Positions 6,798-14,077 of a stretch of DNA of 40,246 nt are shown here, one piece after another; position 1 is the stretch's first letter, and the number at the start of each line of letters is the position of its first letter. Source of the DNA: Campylobacterota bacterium. GTDB taxonomy: Bacteria > Campylobacterota > Campylobacteria > Campylobacterales > QNZT01. Under the pieces are notes generated by a model. That model searched no databases, was not told the DNA's origin, and saw only the letters and a list, made by a program, of their open reading frames with translations. The stretch covers positions 1 through 40,246 of the forward strand of contig JAHZKW010000129.1 of assembly GCA_022600175.1 (NCBI GenBank). Reading direction: 5' to 3'. The position numbers and the translations under genes are program-made.

Positions 6798-9545
6798 TTA
6801 GCGTAATAACAACAATGTATTTACCGTAACCGACAAATCTGAGAGGGAAAGATGATCACTTGTTTTAATAAACGCTATCATGTCATCATAACGCTTCTTA
6901 TCAAAGGACTCATGATCAAAATAGTTCTCTATGATCCGCTCTCCCTCTTCTCCCTCACGTTTAAATTGCAATAGTTTCTCAGTCAAATAGACCAATTTAA
7001 ACTCTAATAACTGCTCTAATTGTACTTTGAGGTAATCTTGGATCACATTTTTAGAGGAGATCGTCTCTATCTTATCTATTAAAAGTGCAATCTCAAGCTT
7101 TTGTACTAACGTATAAAAGAGTGTTGCTGCCTCGGTTAAATCAGCCTTGGAGAGTTGCTTGATCTTGATAATAGCAGAAGAGAATCTTAAAAAATCAAGA
7201 TTAGCAAAAAAAGTACTCAATAGTTCATTGTCTTTGACTTGAGTCCTTTTAGAGGTTTGCAAAGTTTCAATAACATCAAAAATACAACTCTTATACTCTA
7301 AAATCGTATCAAACCGAATATCTTCTTTACGTAAACTTTTTAACATCCATTGCACATTATATTCGATCACATCCTCAATCTTTAAGAGCATATAGTATTG
7401 ATCTTTGATGGCAATAGTATAATCATTTCTATAAATCTCATAGCGAATATCATTGGCATTGAAAAGCTGATTAATCACCAAATATGCTTTAATCTTAAGC
7501 ATAAATTTTTCAACACCCAAAGTATCCAAATCTTTGATAAATGTTGCGCCTGCAAAATTAATAATCTTATTGGCAATGATCATCGAAGTAATCTCTTTAC
7601 GCAAAGGATGCGCTTTGATCTCATTTTCATAAATCGCAATCAATGATTTTGGAAAATATTTAAAAAGATAACGCTCAAAAAAGCCCTCTTCTTCAAACAT
7701 CGTACACTCTGATAAAAGATCTTGTAATAAAATCTTTGCATACAGCGTCATGGTAGCAATCACTGGTCGTATCACTCGACCATCACTATCAATAACCTCA
7801 TCAAAGTCACGCTCTTTAGGAATATCAAAATAACTACGTTTAAACGTATCTAAATGTTTTTCTAATACCGTCAAAGATTGTGTAAAGCTCTCTACATGTT
7901 TAACGGAGCGTTTGGTATCAAGAGAGATAGAGAGAGATTGCAGATAATTTGTCCACATGACACTCTCTACCACACTACTACTTAACCCTTGTAAAGTACT
8001 GTCCTTTTCATCACTGCTAAGTATCTCTTTCTCTACCAAAGCGTTGAGCAAAATTTTGAGATTAACTTCATGATCACTCGTATCAACCCCCGCGGAGTTA
8101 TCAATACTATCTAAGTTGATCTTCCCACCTTGCATCGCATACTCCATGCGTGCAGGCATTGTCAGCGCTAAGTTTGCACCCTCACACACTACTTTTGCAT
8201 TGACCTCATCCGCATCAATACGTACAAATTCATTATTTTTATCCCCTAAACTGATATTGGTCTCACTACTTGATTTGACATAAGTACCAATCCCACCAAA
8301 GTAGAGCATATCCACCTCTACTTGTAAAAGTGCTTTTGCCAACTCTTCGCCATTGAGCGTCTCTTTGTCACTCTTGATCAATACCTGAATCTCAGGTGTC
8401 AAAGTCACACTTTTACTTGCTCGCTTAAAAACCCCACCCCCTGTAGAGATTTTAGTCTGATCATACTCTGACCACTTACCGCGTTTCATCGCAAACAATC
8501 TTTGACGCTCACCATAAGCAATCTCTAAATCTGGATTGGGATCGATAAATACCTCATCAGAACTAATCGCTCCTACAAGACGAAAATAGGGACTCTCAAG
8601 CAAACCATTACCAAAAACATCGCCACTCATGGATCCTACACCCACAATTGAGATAGACTCTTTATAAAAATCTATTCCCTCTTCAATAAAAAACCTCTGA
8701 GAAGCTTTAATTGCACCTTTAGCCGTCACACCAAGCTTTTTATGATGATACCCATTACTAGAACCACTCGCAAATGCATCTAAAAGCCAAAACCCTCTAT
8801 TTTTAGAAATAGCATTAGCAGTATCACTCATACTTGAAGTTCCACGATCTGCAGCAACTACAAAATAAGGGTCATCCTGATCATAGCTCACACATAAAGG
8901 ATCTCTCACAATCTCACCAGCAACTTGATTATCAACCACATCAAGTAGTGCATTGATAAAACGGGTATAGTACCCCTCAAAATCTTTTTTATCTACTTGC
9001 CCCTCATTTTTAGTGATGACAAATCCACCTTTTGCCCCTTTAGGAACAATAACAGAGTTTTTCGCCTCTTGTGTTGTCATCAAAGACTTCACTTCCGTTC
9101 TAAAATCCTCCATGCGGTTACTCCATCTTAGCCCTCCTCGACATACAGTAGAGACCCTTAGGTGTGTTCCTTTCATATCATTGGCATAGACAAAAGTTTC
9201 ATAATGCGGCTGTACCCCTTTTAAAATATGTGTTAACCTGCTCACGTCAAACTTCAAAGCAATGGTGTCGCACTTTTTAAAGTAGTTTGTACGAACAATA
9301 CTTTGTAATATTTCATAAATAAGTTTTAACATTCTATCATCATTGATACTCTCAATTTTTTTAAATGCCTCAATAATATTTTGGTTAATTTTTTCAAGGA
9401 CACGATCACGATCTTTCAATGCAGGATCAAATTTTGTCACAAAATAGTCTCTAAACAGTGCAAAAAGTGGGGTATACTTAATGATACAATCTTCTAAAGA
9501 AGTTTTATTAAAATCAGCGATAATCTGCTCTGCATAGTTACCCAC
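6798..9545 (-). CDS. NAD-specific glutamate dehydrogenase, large type: main catalytic part, separated by a frameshift
   Basis: 915 residues from a GTG at 9545 that is probably not a true start. It carries the core of the large NAD-GDH family (glutamate to 2-oxoglutarate): RGGLRWS (136-142), EVKSLMTTQEAKNS (151-164), the catalytic-lysine region KGAKGGF (169-175) and a nucleotide-binding segment GVGSMSGDVFGNG. The family begins further upstream. Those residues are encoded in another frame at 9494-9970, and reading across 9561-9568 with one GA unit removed joins SLR to DLLSRTVGNYAEQ and gives a protein of about 1,060 residues. As sequenced, the gene is split. It lies 38 bp (plus the N-terminal part) downstream of the hydrogenase genes on the same strand. 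Confidence 0.85.
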   Translation of the reverse strand: MGNYAEQIIADFNKTSLEDCIIKYTPLFALFRDYFVTKFDPALKDRDRVLEKINQNIIEAFKKIESINDDRMLKLIYEILQSIVRTNYFKKCDTIALKFDVSRLTHILKGVQPHYETFVYANDMKGTHLRVSTVCRGGLRWSNRMEDFRTEVKSLMTTQEAKNSVIVPKGAKGGFVITKNEGQVDKKDFEGYYTRFINALLDVVDNQVAGEIVRDPLCVSYDQDDPYFVVAADRGTSSMSDTANAISKNRGFWLLDAFASGSSNGYHHKKLGVTAKGAIKASQRFFIEEGIDFYKESISIVGVGSMSGDVFGNGLLESPYFRLVGAISSDEVFIDPNPDLEIAYGERQRLFAMKRGKWSEYDQTKISTGGGVFKRASKSVTLTPEIQVLIKSDKETLNGEELAKALLQVEVDMLYFGGIGTYVKSSSETNISLGDKNNEFVRIDADEVNAKVVCEGANLALTMPARMEYAMQGGKINLDSIDNSAGVDTSDHEVNLKILLNALVEKEILSSDEKDSTLQGLSSSVVESVMWTNYLQSLSISLDTKRSVKHVESFTQSLTVLEKHLDTFKRSYFDIPKERDFDEVIDSDGRVIRPVIATMTLYAKILLQDLLSECTMFEEEGFFERYLFKYFPKSLIAIYENEIKAHPLRKEITSMIIANKIINFAGATFIKDLDTLGVEKFMLKIKAYLVINQLFNANDIRYEIYRNDYTIAIKDQYYMLLKIEDVIEYNVQWMLKSLRKEDIRFDTILEYKSCIFDVIETLQTSKRTQVKDNELLSTFFANLDFLRFSSAIIKIKQLSKADLTEAATLFYTLVQKLEIALLIDKIETISSKNVIQDYLKVQLEQLLEFKLVYLTEKLLQFKREGEEGERIIENYFDHESFDKKRYDDMIAFIKTSDHLSLSDLSVTVNTLLLLR

Positions 9546-9970
9546 TGTGCGTGATAAAAGATCTCTCTTAGACTAAAGTTTTCAAAGTAGACAAGTCCCA
9601 GTAACTTCCCTGATTCTAAGTTTCCATCAATCACATTTAAAAAGAGTGATTTAAAATTCTCTTTGTGTTTGATTAAAAGCTCTTTTTTCTCAATATCAAG
9701 TAGTAATTTCGTCACAAAAAGAATATCTTTTTGAAATTTTGCCTCATAAGTAATCTCACTGATTGTGATAAATCCAAAATCACCTAAAATAGGAATAATA
9801 TCAGAAATAGGAAAACGTACCTTGGAGTAGATCTTAACCTCACATACACTCTTATCACACACCTTGAGTGTCAAATCTCTCACTTTCAACTCTTCAATAA
9901 CCTCATCACTGATAATTAAATCTTTTTCATCAATGAGCTGATCACAGACCAGTTTTATCTTTTTTTCCAT
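9494..9970 (-). CDS. NAD-glutamate dehydrogenase N-terminal part, frameshifted
   Basis: 158 residues, of which roughly the first 135 belong to the family. FPISDIIPILGDFGFITISE (72-91) is the conserved segment that precedes the catalytic part in large NAD-GDHs, and ENFSLRE near residue 130 should continue into the downstream frame. The last ~20 residues (from FYHAQW onward) are out-of-frame read-through to a stop at 9494. A good GGGGAATGG ribosome-binding region precedes ATG 9970. The N-terminus is much shorter than the ~700 residues ahead of the core in the 180-kDa type, so this is a compact variant. Whether the break is real, phase-variable or a sequencing error is unknown. Confidence 0.75.
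   Translation of the reverse strand: MEKKIKLVCDQLIDEKDLIISDEVIEELKVRDLTLKVCDKSVCEVKIYSKVRFPISDIIPILGDFGFITISEITYEAKFQKDILFVTKLLLDIEKKELLIKHKENFKSLFLNVIDGNLESGKLLGLVYFENFSLREIFYHAQWVTMQSRLSLILIKLL
9561..9568 (-). other. Frameshift site in NAD-GDH gene, (GA)3 tract
   Basis: On the - strand the codons read CTA AGA GAG ATC. Removing one GA unit gives CTA AGA GAT CTT TTA TCA, which encodes LRDLLS and runs straight into the TVGNYAEQ frame. The downstream frame has a TAG just upstream (within TTT TAG TCT), so the shift must occur inside this short repeat. Confidence 0.7.
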
Positions 9971-10007: not shown

Positions 10008-11660
10008 CTATTTTACTTTATATCGACCAAATACTTTACCTCGGTGATCAATAATATGTACTGCACATGCTAAACAAGGATCGAATGAGTGTAAAACCTT
10101 CAATACTTCCAGTGGTTTAGCAGGATCTTCTAATGCTATTCCTACCAACGCCTCTTCGTAGGCACCTCTTTGCCCCTTACTATCTTTAGGTGTAGCATTC
10201 CAAGTTGTAGGAGCGATCACCTGATACTTTGCAATCTTTTGTGCTTTAATCGAAACAAGGTGTGCCAAAACACCCCTTGGCACTTCAAGATAAAGAGTTC
10301 CCTCTGCCTCTTTAGGCAGCGTATCAAAAAGATAGTGCGTCCAAGTCTTTGTATCATAATATTTTATATTCTCAACCAATCTATTCACTGATTTAAAAAT
10401 ATACTCAGCAATATAAGCACTCTCAATCGCACGAGCAGCATTTCTTCCCACTGTAGTAGAGAGATCTATCAACTCAAGTTCAGTAAATGATAAAAACTCA
10501 TCGACAAAAGGTTTGATAAAACGGTTCCCTTGTTGGTAACTTACAAGTACTCTCGCCAAAGGTCCACACTCCATCGTTTTTCCATCATATTTTGGTGCTT
10601 TTATCCAGCTATATTTATCCTCTTTCGCCTCTGTTTTTAAAGAGCCATCTTCATGTAGATCTGTATAAAAAGGTTTCTCATCTTTGTACCACGCACGCTC
10701 TACCTCTTCAGTCACTTTTTTAGGATCAAAAGATACAATATTTTCAAAGTCATGATCAAAAATCACACCATTTTCAAAAAGTTTATGTTCCTCATCAAAC
10801 TGATAACCACCTACAGCAAAAAAGTTTCCATTACCACGTCCTAAACCCGCTTTGATCTCATCTCTATAAGCATGTGCTAATAGTTTCATATCAGGTAAAT
10901 ATGCTCGATCTACAAACTCTTTTGCCTCTTTAAGCATAAAGATAAAATCATTTAAACGTTGTGGATTTAACATATCAGCAACACTCGTCACCCCACCAAC
11001 AACAAGCGTTTGTGGATGGGGTGTTTTAGCACCAAAAATAGCAATCGCTTGTGAGATATTAGATTGAAACTTTAACGCTTCCAAATAGTGAGAAAGTAAC
11101 AGCAAATTCTCTTCAGGACGCAGTTTATAGGCACCATGTCCCCAATACCCATTACTAAAAGGACCTAACCTCCCTGACTTGATAAATTTTGCTAGCTTCT
11201 CCTTAACCCCTATATAGTGTGCATGAGAATTAGCATAAGGTCGTTTAGAGTAGAGATGCCCTGTCTTACTGGTTAATTTTGGATCTGCATCTAACGATTT
11301 GGTCACATCTACAAAATCTAAAAGGTGCAGATGGTAAAAATGTACCACATGATCTTGAAGAAAAAGCGCTAAAGAGATTAAATCTCTAATGATCTCACCA
11401 TTTTTGGGAGGCACTATCCCATAAGCATCTTCTACCGCACTAATTGCACCTCTAAAGTGTGAATTGGTACACACTCCACAAATGCGCCCAGCAAGTAATC
11501 CTGCATCTCTAGGGTCACGATCTTTAAGAATGGTCTCAATACCACGAAAGAGTTGTCCACTAACATACGCTTCTTGCACAACATTGGCTTCATCAATCAT
11601 CACTTCAGCACGTAAATGCCCCTCTATTCTGGTAATAGGATCAATCACAATCTTCTTCAT
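10008..11660 (-). CDS. [NiFe] hydrogenase large subunit
   Basis: 550 residues. The N-terminal nickel site motif is RICGVC (59-64, Cys61/Cys64) and the C-terminal one is DPCLACAVH (527-535, Cys529/Cys532). The 15 residues after His535 would be removed by a HyaD/HybD-type maturation protease after nickel insertion. GRLGPFSNGYWGHGAYKL resembles Hyb/HydB-type uptake enzymes. It forms the H2-activating subunit with the upstream fused small subunit; the genes overlap as ATGA (11657-11660). There is no signal peptide of its own, and the partner has no Tat signal, so the enzyme should be cytoplasmic. No hyp or protease genes are in the window, so maturation must be encoded elsewhere. Confidence 0.95.
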   Translation of the reverse strand: MKKIVIDPITRIEGHLRAEVMIDEANVVQEAYVSGQLFRGIETILKDRDPRDAGLLAGRICGVCTNSHFRGAISAVEDAYGIVPPKNGEIIRDLISLALFLQDHVVHFYHLHLLDFVDVTKSLDADPKLTSKTGHLYSKRPYANSHAHYIGVKEKLAKFIKSGRLGPFSNGYWGHGAYKLRPEENLLLLSHYLEALKFQSNISQAIAIFGAKTPHPQTLVVGGVTSVADMLNPQRLNDFIFMLKEAKEFVDRAYLPDMKLLAHAYRDEIKAGLGRGNGNFFAVGGYQFDEEHKLFENGVIFDHDFENIVSFDPKKVTEEVERAWYKDEKPFYTDLHEDGSLKTEAKEDKYSWIKAPKYDGKTMECGPLARVLVSYQQGNRFIKPFVDEFLSFTELELIDLSTTVGRNAARAIESAYIAEYIFKSVNRLVENIKYYDTKTWTHYLFDTLPKEAEGTLYLEVPRGVLAHLVSIKAQKIAKYQVIAPTTWNATPKDSKGQRGAYEEALVGIALEDPAKPLEVLKVLHSFDPCLACAVHIIDHRGKVFGRYKVK

Positions 11661-14077
11661 GACAACTCTCCTTCTTCCACTTTACGCTCATCTGCAAACT
11701 TATCAAAAAAGCCAACTTCCACACACCCCATACAACCATGTCCCGCTTGTACTGGCCAACTTGTACCTTTGTTAAATTTCATCGTCGGGCAGTTGGCATT
11801 GGTATAAGGTCCTTTACATCCCATTTCAAAAAGACACCACCCCTTTTTCGCACCCTCATCGCCCCACTCTTGCACAAATTCACCAAGTTCATAATGTCCA
11901 CGTCTCTCACAATTATCATGAATTCTTCCCTCATAAGCCCAAAGCGGTCGATTAAATTGATCAAGTGGCGGTAACTCTTCAAACATCAAATAAGAGAGCA
12001 GTGTCCCAACAATATTGATAGGATTGACTGGACACCCTGGGAGATTAATCACATCCTCTCTTTGCAGCGCTTCTGAAACACCCACTGCACCTGTTGGGTT
12101 TGGTGCAGCTGCTACCACACCCCCATCTAGTGCACAACTACCCACAGAGAGAATTAAAGCAGCATCTTTAGCACACTTCTGTAAAAGAGAAAGTCCCGTC
12201 TCACCTTGAGGACCTATACGCAGATATTTTCCCTCCATCGCCATAGGAATAGCCCCCTCAACAATCAAAATATAGGTACCTTTGTCATGCTTGATAATAT
12301 TTTCTAAGACACTCTCGCTCTGATCTCCACTCGCACTCATCAACAGTTCATGATAATCCAAAGAGATATAATCAAAAATCAAATCTGCAATATCAGGGTG
12401 TGTAGACTTGATAAATGCTTCGGAATTACCAGAGCAGTCAGAAAGCTCCAACCAAATAATAGGCACACGATTGAGGTTATTGATCCCCTCTTTGACTACC
12501 CCTTCAAACTCAGGATGTAGTTGCATACTTGCAGTAACCATCGAAATCCAACTATTGACCTCTTTACTTGTAATCTCAAAAGCATCAAGCGAACATGAGA
12601 GATTTTCACTATCAAGTTGGTTTTGCGGATGGAGTCGATTATACTTGTCGATTCGCTTTTTGACTAAGGCAATCTCCTTTTCCCTTGCTATCTCTTCAGG
12701 GGTACGTTTGGGGATATTAGGATCAATGAGATACTGTGATGCCATTATCCTATCTTCAACCATCTTTTTGCATCTCCCACAAACACGTCCCGCTTGTGAA
12801 AATGCACCATACTCTAAAAAGGTATTGATACCACTTTGTGCAACTACCTCTTCAATATCCCTTTGGTAGACATGTTCACAACTACAGATAAGTCTTCCAC
12901 GTTCACCTACCAATCTATTTTCATAGAGATACGAAGGGTCCACTTTTTCACCACTTTGCATCAAAGACTCAAGATAGCCTATGTCTACGTTGGAATTAAT
13001 ACCAATAAAACGTGTCAATCTATCCTCTTGAATAAAGTACTCATCTACTCTGTGCTCTTTCATAGCTGTAATCAGTAACTTTTCATGATCAGATGCATAA
13101 GTCGATGCACGTACTTCGATGAGATCAAACTCACCTACTTTCAACATATCAATCGCAACTTCTAAAAGAAATTCTCTCTCTTCTAATGTTAAAATATCTG
13201 CAATCACAACATCTGCCTGTAAAGTACACTCTTTGACATGCCCAGCAGTGAAAGAGAATGTTTCCACTTCTGCAGCTTCCCCCACAGCATAGATATCTGG
13301 GTCACTACTCTTCATGTAAAGGTCTGTTAATACCCCTCGATTACAGGCCAATACTTCTCTGGCAAAATCAATATTAGGTTCTATACCTACACCAAAGATT
13401 ACAAAAGGATTTTCAATCTCTAATTTCTCTGTTTTTAAAAGGGTAATATGACTGTTTTCAACAGTTTTTTCTATCACTTCATCTTCATAAGAGATTCTGA
13501 TTTTACCACTCTCAAGAAAACAACGCTCCATCTCTGTGATGGATTGAGGAGAGAGTGCTTTGTCATAGAGATAATCTCCTCGTACCAGTAGTGTAATATG
13601 TTCTACCTCATCCATCGCATCCAGCGTTTCTAAAAGCTCTAAGCCTATAGGTCCAGCACCAATCACGACAACTTCTCGATCTATGATACCCTTTCGAATC
13701 TGCTGACAGTCATAGGCACTTCTAAAAACTGCTGCATTTTCAATATTTGCAATATCAAATAGTGTTTTGGGTCTAGATCCTGTAGCAATGATCAATTTAT
13801 CATAGGAGAAAGAGGCATTTTTAGAAAAAATACGTTTTTTTAGCTTATCAATCTTGATAATTCTCTGATTAAGTTCCACTTCTACCATAGGATCAAGGGG
13901 GAGTTGAATCTTTTGCATAGGCGCACTCTGATCAACAAGAGCACAAAGATGTATCCGATCATAAGGTAAATATGCCTCTTCAGAGACAATCATTACTTCC
14001 ACATGCGCGTCATATTTTTTAAGGTTATTGGCCATATAGGCTGCTGCAATACCACCACCGATAATTACAATTCTCAT
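11657..14077 (-). CDS. Fusion: FAD/NAD(P) oxidoreductase + BFD-like [2Fe-2S] + [NiFe] hydrogenase small subunit
   Basis: 806 residues. Residues 1-380 are a pyridine nucleotide-disulfide oxidoreductase: FAD loop GGGIAA (7-12), ATGSRP (98-103), second dinucleotide loop GAGPIG (140-145) and YAVGEAAE (263-270), in the style of the NirB N-terminus. Residues 396-440 form a BFD-like [2Fe-2S] domain with C398, C400, C433 and C436. After a linker, residues ~538-795 are a hydrogenase small subunit. Cluster residues seen are C548, C648 and C682 (proximal); H720, C723, C748 and C754 (distal); C763, C782 and C785 (medial). The fourth proximal position is N551 instead of Cys. There is no Tat signal and no C-terminal anchor, so the complex is soluble. 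Electrons from H2 could pass through the clusters to FAD and then NAD(P)+, an inference from domain order. RBS GAGGTG lies just before ATG 14077. Confidence 0.9.
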   Translation of the reverse strand: MRIVIIGGGIAAAYMANNLKKYDAHVEVMIVSEEAYLPYDRIHLCALVDQSAPMQKIQLPLDPMVEVELNQRIIKIDKLKKRIFSKNASFSYDKLIIATGSRPKTLFDIANIENAAVFRSAYDCQQIRKGIIDREVVVIGAGPIGLELLETLDAMDEVEHITLLVRGDYLYDKALSPQSITEMERCFLESGKIRISYEDEVIEKTVENSHITLLKTEKLEIENPFVIFGVGIEPNIDFAREVLACNRGVLTDLYMKSSDPDIYAVGEAAEVETFSFTAGHVKECTLQADVVIADILTLEEREFLLEVAIDMLKVGEFDLIEVRASTYASDHEKLLITAMKEHRVDEYFIQEDRLTRFIGINSNVDIGYLESLMQSGEKVDPSYLYENRLVGERGRLICSCEHVYQRDIEEVVAQSGINTFLEYGAFSQAGRVCGRCKKMVEDRIMASQYLIDPNIPKRTPEEIAREKEIALVKKRIDKYNRLHPQNQLDSENLSCSLDAFEITSKEVNSWISMVTASMQLHPEFEGVVKEGINNLNRVPIIWLELSDCSGNSEAFIKSTHPDIADLIFDYISLDYHELLMSASGDQSESVLENIIKHDKGTYILIVEGAIPMAMEGKYLRIGPQGETGLSLLQKCAKDAALILSVGSCALDGGVVAAAPNPTGAVGVSEALQREDVINLPGCPVNPINIVGTLLSYLMFEELPPLDQFNRPLWAYEGRIHDNCERRGHYELGEFVQEWGDEGAKKGWCLFEMGCKGPYTNANCPTMKFNKGTSWPVQAGHGCMGCVEVGFFDKFADERKVEEGELS

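Follow-up and report, generated by a model that had tools for sequence, protein, structure and literature searches.

The window, by which we mean the whole stretch of DNA that was analysed (40,246 nucleotides), comes from a deep-branching member of the Campylobacterota. On its minus strand it carries a gene in which a flavin-type oxidoreductase, a [2Fe-2S] domain and a [NiFe] hydrogenase small subunit are fused in one reading frame. The gene for the large subunit follows directly, its start codon overlapping the stop codon of the small subunit by 4 bp. The genes and domains are as follows.

11657-14077, minus strand: fusion gene, 806 aa, FAD/NAD(P) oxidoreductase + BFD [2Fe-2S] + degenerated Tat region + [NiFe] small subunit (ORF, Pfam/NCBIfam)
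12908-14077, minus strand: FAD/NAD(P)-binding domain, residues 1-390, NirB / ferredoxin-reductase type (Pyr_redox_2, residues 1-269; NirB model, 3-444)
12752-12892, minus strand: BFD-like [2Fe-2S] domain, residues 396-442, ligands C398, C400, C433 and C436 (PF04324)
12476-12580, minus strand: degenerated Tat-signal region, residues 500-534, twin Arg lost at aligned residues 504-505 (hhalign)
11678-12475, minus strand: [NiFe] hydrogenase small-subunit domain, residues 535-800 (phmmer against solved small subunits, E down to 3.6e-77)
10008-11660, minus strand: [NiFe] hydrogenase large subunit, 550 aa (PF00374, 8.1e-188)

Pfam and NCBIfam models matched along the 806-residue product, including Pyr_redox_2 (1.1e-40), Fer2_BFD (1.2e-6), Oxidored_q6 (1.4e-27) and, in the small-subunit part, NiFe_hyd_SSU_C (4.6e-30) and TIGR00391 (E 2.1e-110), the latter indicating a complete small subunit. 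The large subunit has both motifs of group 1b, L1 AGRICGVCTNSH (RICGVCTNSH) and L2 SFDPCLACAVH. The neighbours of the fused hydrogenase are ilvD and NAD-glutamate dehydrogenase, and the cytochrome b partner of group 1b enzymes is absent from these positions. The NAD-glutamate dehydrogenase region (6798-9970, minus strand) consists of two overlapping ORFs in different frames, one of 158 aa with a weak ACT3 match, then one of 915 aa with the catalytic domain; the split may be a frameshift, an assembly error or a real two-ORF gene. Maturation genes in the source genome include HypD and two HycI-type proteases, and fused loci elsewhere have a maturation protease and hyp genes close by.

The best solved relatives of the N-terminal half are the NADH oxidase/nitrite reductase 1xhc and ferredoxin reductases, and this half is also related to NirB, PadH and chain E of 8c0z, which is the FAD subunit in an aldehyde oxidoreductase complex. 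Full-length fused proteins conserve the dinucleotide motifs for FAD as well as for NAD(P), and the four BFD cysteines are invariant in the family. Signals for nucleotide specificity are mixed: the GxGPIG motif is of the NAD type, and the second strand ends in V165-R166 (R166 at least 90% conserved), which presumably recalls NADP-binding glutathione reductase. Two further cysteines, Cys45 in YDRIHLC (13943-13945, minus strand) and Cys284 (13226-13228, minus strand), are invariant among full-length fused proteins; related ferredoxin reductases have Ser at the position matching Cys45. An AlphaFold model of the fusion monomer, computed without the large subunit, was confident for the flavin/BFD part and mostly under 50 pLDDT for the small subunit.

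The preliminary description had drawn attention to an asparagine in place of a proximal-cluster cysteine. The translation indeed reads LELSD-C548-S-G-N551-SEAF at 12436-12425 of the minus strand, with AAT as the Asn codon. Pairwise alignment to solved chains agreed with its view that CxxC is usual here, HoxK and Hyd-2 both having C-x-x-C. The other ligands, which it had described as all kept, are present in the window protein and invariant in the 29 full-length orthologs. We take the assignment of ligands to clusters to follow, by homology, that of standard [NiFe] small subunits.

12434-12436, minus strand: Cys548, first proximal-cluster ligand (alignment)
12425-12427, minus strand: Asn551 (AAT), second proximal-ligand position, normally Cys (invariant in 29/29 full-length orthologs)
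12134-12136, minus strand: Cys648, proximal ligand (invariant)
12032-12034, minus strand: Cys682, proximal ligand (invariant)
11816-11920, minus strand: distal-cluster ligands H720, C723, C748 and C754 (invariant; alignment to solved chains)
11723-11791, minus strand: medial-cluster ligands C763, C782 and C785 with Pro775, the standard [3Fe-4S] pattern (invariant in the full-length rows of the alignment)

The proximal site of the fused protein accordingly consists of three cysteines and an asparagine at the second position. An alignment placing a different cysteine there would have undone the earlier claim, and no alternative conserved Cys was found nearby: the conserved small-subunit cysteines of the fused family are only 548, 648, 682, 723, 748, 754, 763, 782 and 785, none of which can replace N551. 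The six-Cys proximal site of O2-tolerant group 1d enzymes is likewise absent, with Gly550 at the first extra-Cys position and no conserved Cys between C648 and C682.

Relatives were collected from 38 loci on GTDB contigs, with more from genome searches. The full-length set comprises the window protein and 28 others that are 53-76% identical to it, and the asparagine proved to be fixed throughout, being encoded by AAC in 17 members and by AAT in 12. Since N551 is invariant in orthologs that use both synonymous codons, chance and sequencing error were ruled out as its source. In a wider alignment, in which a few rows are truncated or near-duplicate, 60/60 fused rows read CSGN or CTGN. A DNA pattern for the fused motif occurred in 39 of 397 Campylobacterota genomes, representing 13 of 68 genera, and a reversed control pattern gave 0 matches. 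Judged from these alignments, the Asn551 substitution is real and fixed across the whole fused enzyme family.

Fusions of this kind have been reported before. Hansen and Perner (2016) reported the fused small subunit from XCL-2 and its close relatives, among them Sulfuricurvum and Sulfurovum. They found that subgroup-specific Fe-S motifs were not conserved, and suggested that clusters might not bind and that the operon was possibly non-functional (PMC4744846). XCL-2 showed no H2 uptake under the conditions tested, and the hydrogen activity of related strains was located in the membrane fraction (PMC4744846); at least one of these strains has a second, membrane-anchored hydrogenase (PMC6501319). 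On the published reading of XCL-2, Asn551 would mark a hydrogenase in decay, its Fe-S sites having lost the ability to hold clusters. We consider this very improbable, because Asn551 and the other ligands are invariant across the 29 orthologs and the open reading frames persist in tens of genomes from 13 genera and in four gammaproteobacterial loci. In addition, dN/dS between close pairs (Nei-Gojobori estimates, with dS above 1 in some pairs) was 0.00-0.04 for the small subunit, the most constrained domain, compared with 0.03-0.10 in the FAD domain and as much as 0.19 in the linker. Such strong purifying selection, like the conserved ligands, argues against unbound clusters and a decayed operon. 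Family-wide decay of the fused enzyme is therefore unlikely, and the inactivity of XCL-2 may have another cause.

The CxxN motif is not peculiar to the fused protein, since the exported group 1b and group-2-like enzymes of the same genome also carry it. In this genome (94% complete), all three PF14720-type small subunits found have CxxN, and no CxxC small subunit of that type was detected. Elsewhere, exported HynS-type group 1b enzymes of Sulfurovum- and Sulfurimonas-like genomes have CAGN in 17/17 cases and group-2-like small subunits of Campylobacterota have CNGN in 17/17; the exported CTGC enzymes were drawn mainly from Campylobacter- and Helicobacter-type families. Substituted ligands at this position had been described as known from a few classes. 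The precedents hold: Asp is found in group 1h-like small subunits encoded at two plasmid loci (L160 and L161, both CDGD), and Asn in the HupS of the cyanobacterium Nostoc punctiforme (PMC4070099; PMC6616624). The implied rarity is too narrow, however, as Asn is also fixed in the CAGN and CNGN enzymes of Campylobacterota. In motif alignment, the small subunit of Huc, solved at 1.5 A, reads C-S-G-N. Published comparisons record the same Asn for groups 2a and 1f as well as for some methanotroph enzymes, and report only three proximal Cys in some group 1b, 1f and 1g enzymes (PMC5364354). CxxN is here a fixed trait of a known, poorly studied enzyme family, and comparable substitutions have been recorded for other hydrogenases.

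Several genomes carry these enzymes close together. In one cluster of the source genome (L173; contig C1, 1-16000), HynSL of the exported CAGN type is joined by a CNGN hydrogenase of the group-2-like kind, a maturation protease and a cytochrome-b-like ORF. In two Sulfuricurvum loci (L052 and L056), fused, group-2-like and exported small-subunit genes lie inside one 14-kb stretch, and a 50-kb plasmid of Sulfurimonas paralvinellae (L152) has both exported CAGN and CNGN hydrogenases.

The small subunit of the window is of the TIGR00391 / PF14720 type, and trees put it with the group 1b enzymes of Campylobacterota; the XCL-2 homolog has also been assigned to group 1b (PMC6501319). The group-2-like rows with CNGN, which match Huc best among solved structures, form a separate clade in the tree, and the fused enzyme does not fall with group 2 small subunits such as HupS and Huc of group 2a. 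By sequence, the fused enzyme is an atypical member of group 1b and derived from it. When residues 470-534 were compared by hhalign with the N-termini and Tat signals of exported group 1b small subunits, they matched with a probability of 94% (E 1.9e-8). At the aligned position, the twin Arg is present in 13/13 exported proteins and in 0/35 fused proteins, and an RRxF motif, as in the group 1b signal peptide, was absent from residues 440-545 of all 35. With a Tat-like region kept and its twin Arg lost, the fused enzyme seems to descend from an exported hydrogenase that was internalised.

The trees differ in how they relate the Asn-bearing enzymes. In the small-subunit tree, fused and exported Asn enzymes group together (88/76; 88 in a quick tree). 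The concatenated tree joins the fused enzymes with the CTGC enzymes (93/86), with the alternative not rejected (AU p 0.237), and the large-subunit tree has no outgroup and leaves the three clades unrooted. Asn may have arisen once in Campylobacterota 1b enzymes, before the fusion, a scenario favored by the small-subunit tree and not by the concatenated one. If so, the residue could be an ancestral feature of this lineage, inherited without a specific tuning role. Its sharing by the exported CAGN enzymes that join the fused clade is consistent with such inheritance, as is the measurable activity left when database-observed substitutions were put into the Alteromonas macleodii hydrogenase (PMC4070099). 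Even so, we regard neutral inheritance as unlikely: complete fixation of N551 amid many synonymous changes suggests selection for Asn, and the two Asn groups stay apart in the concatenated tree, although their union is not rejected (AU p 0.24). Gammaproteobacterial fused copies from Thiomicrospira, Hydrogenovibrio and Thiomicrorhabdus nest within the Campylobacterota clade in the trees, suggesting transfer between phyla.

Our preferred reading, which we hold to be probable, is that the fused protein is a working cytoplasmic H2:NAD(P)+ oxidoreductase that derives from a Tat-exported group 1b enzyme and has a three-Cys-plus-Asn proximal cluster. H2 would be split at the [NiFe] site of the large subunit, and electrons would enter the proximal cluster, held by Cys 548, 648 and 682 with Asn551 at the fourth corner. 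They would then pass through the medial [3Fe-4S] and the distal His/3Cys [4Fe-4S] clusters to the fused BFD-type [2Fe-2S] cluster, and from there via FAD to NAD(P)+. Which way the electrons flow, that the enzyme sits in the cytoplasm and that NAD(P)+ accepts the electrons are inferences; biochemical work on a fused enzyme was looked for and none was found. Ferredoxin and rubredoxin reductases belong to the same flavoprotein family, and the flavin domain could instead pass electrons to ferredoxin or another flavoprotein, or run in reverse from NAD(P)H to H2. This is rather unlikely in our judgment, given the conservation of both dinucleotide motifs and the internal Fe-S link that the BFD domain provides.

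It is also conceivable, although we place it somewhat short of an even chance, that fusion of a flavin/[2Fe-2S] module onto the Tat leader internalised an exported respiratory 1b hydrogenase and turned it into a single-polypeptide H2-to-NAD(P) wire with a permanently Asn-modified proximal cluster. If true, this internalised fusion would have produced a soluble NAD(P)-linked hydrogenase along an evolutionary path separate from that of the group 3 Hox-type enzymes.

Asn551 would leave the proximal cluster in place, coordinated by three cysteines with Asn at the remaining corner. The proximal cluster of Asn-bearing HupS has been described as [4Fe-4S] with an Asn ligand (PMC6616624), and Huc was found by 1.5 A cryo-EM and EPR to contain three [3Fe-4S] clusters (PMC10017518). 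Because these two enzymes share the Asn and differ in the cluster, sequence alone does not give the cluster type of the fused enzyme. A [4Fe-4S] cluster with Asn or solvent as the fourth ligand is more likely, and [3Fe-4S] is possible; the former is favored since the enzyme most likely feeds NAD(P)+, which a low-potential relay should serve better. In a Huc-like arrangement, Asn551 would not be a ligand, and a high-potential [3Fe-4S] relay would favor H2 uptake and high affinity over reversible NAD(P)+ chemistry. The C-S-G-N motif shared with Huc gives this alternative some substance. We nevertheless find it doubtful: Huc belongs to group 2a and is only distantly related, the fused enzyme falls with group 1b in the trees, HupS is reported to keep [4Fe-4S] despite its Asn, and a cluster of high potential beside the active site should suit quinone more than NAD(P)+.

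Another explanation is that Asn551 is an adaptation to oxygen. The preliminary description had proposed an effect on redox potential or oxygen tolerance, and the analyses here lent support to neither. Group 1h-like enzymes and Huc have Asp or Asn here, and Huc is largely O2-insensitive (PMC10017518). Its authors, however, stress narrow gas channels and name the missing [4Fe-3S] cluster, not the Asn (PMC10017518), and Asn-bearing HupS was called O2-sensitive in a review (PMC6616624). As the fused enzyme also lacks the six-Cys signature of group 1d, oxygen tolerance seems a quite improbable role.

Exported CTGC, exported CAGN and fused CSGN enzymes of group 1b coexist within the Campylobacterota, which makes this phylum a clean natural experiment on what the fourth proximal ligand does. 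We consider the case of moderate interest, for this test and for the correction of a published inference. With the published doubt about cluster binding countered, the fused enzyme merits expression as a possible means of regenerating NAD(P)H with H2.

Among known systems, the closest is the XCL-2-type fusion (Hydrogenovibrio/Thiomicrospira crunogena Tcr_2035-2043; Scott et al. 2006, Hansen and Perner 2016), which is already published (PMC4744846). The XCL-2 small subunit is unusually large (813 aa), has a pyridine nucleotide-disulfide oxidoreductase domain, and lacks a Tat signal and cytochrome b. The window protein is alike in combining a FAD/NAD domain and a small subunit in one ORF of ~800 aa without a Tat signal, and its relatives in Thiomicrospira, Hydrogenovibrio and Thiomicrorhabdus keep all other ligands and have CxxN. 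Whereas Hansen and Perner read the Fe-S sites of XCL-2 as unconserved, our ligand-by-ligand alignment indicates that only the Asn differs. The Tat-exported group 1b HynSL of the Sulfurovum/Sulfurimonas type (CAGN), also present in the source genome, shares the Asn and ~48% identity with the fused small-subunit region, but has a twin-Arg signal, a cytochrome b gene nearby and no flavin domain. The group 2a enzymes HupS (of cyanobacteria) and Huc (of mycobacteria) resemble the fused enzyme in having Asn at the second proximal position and no signal peptide, but they are distant kin with other electron acceptors and, in Huc, three [3Fe-4S] clusters. Finally, HydAB of the Campylobacter/Helicobacter type (CTGC) belongs to the same broad 1b clade, but is exported and has a four-Cys proximal site.
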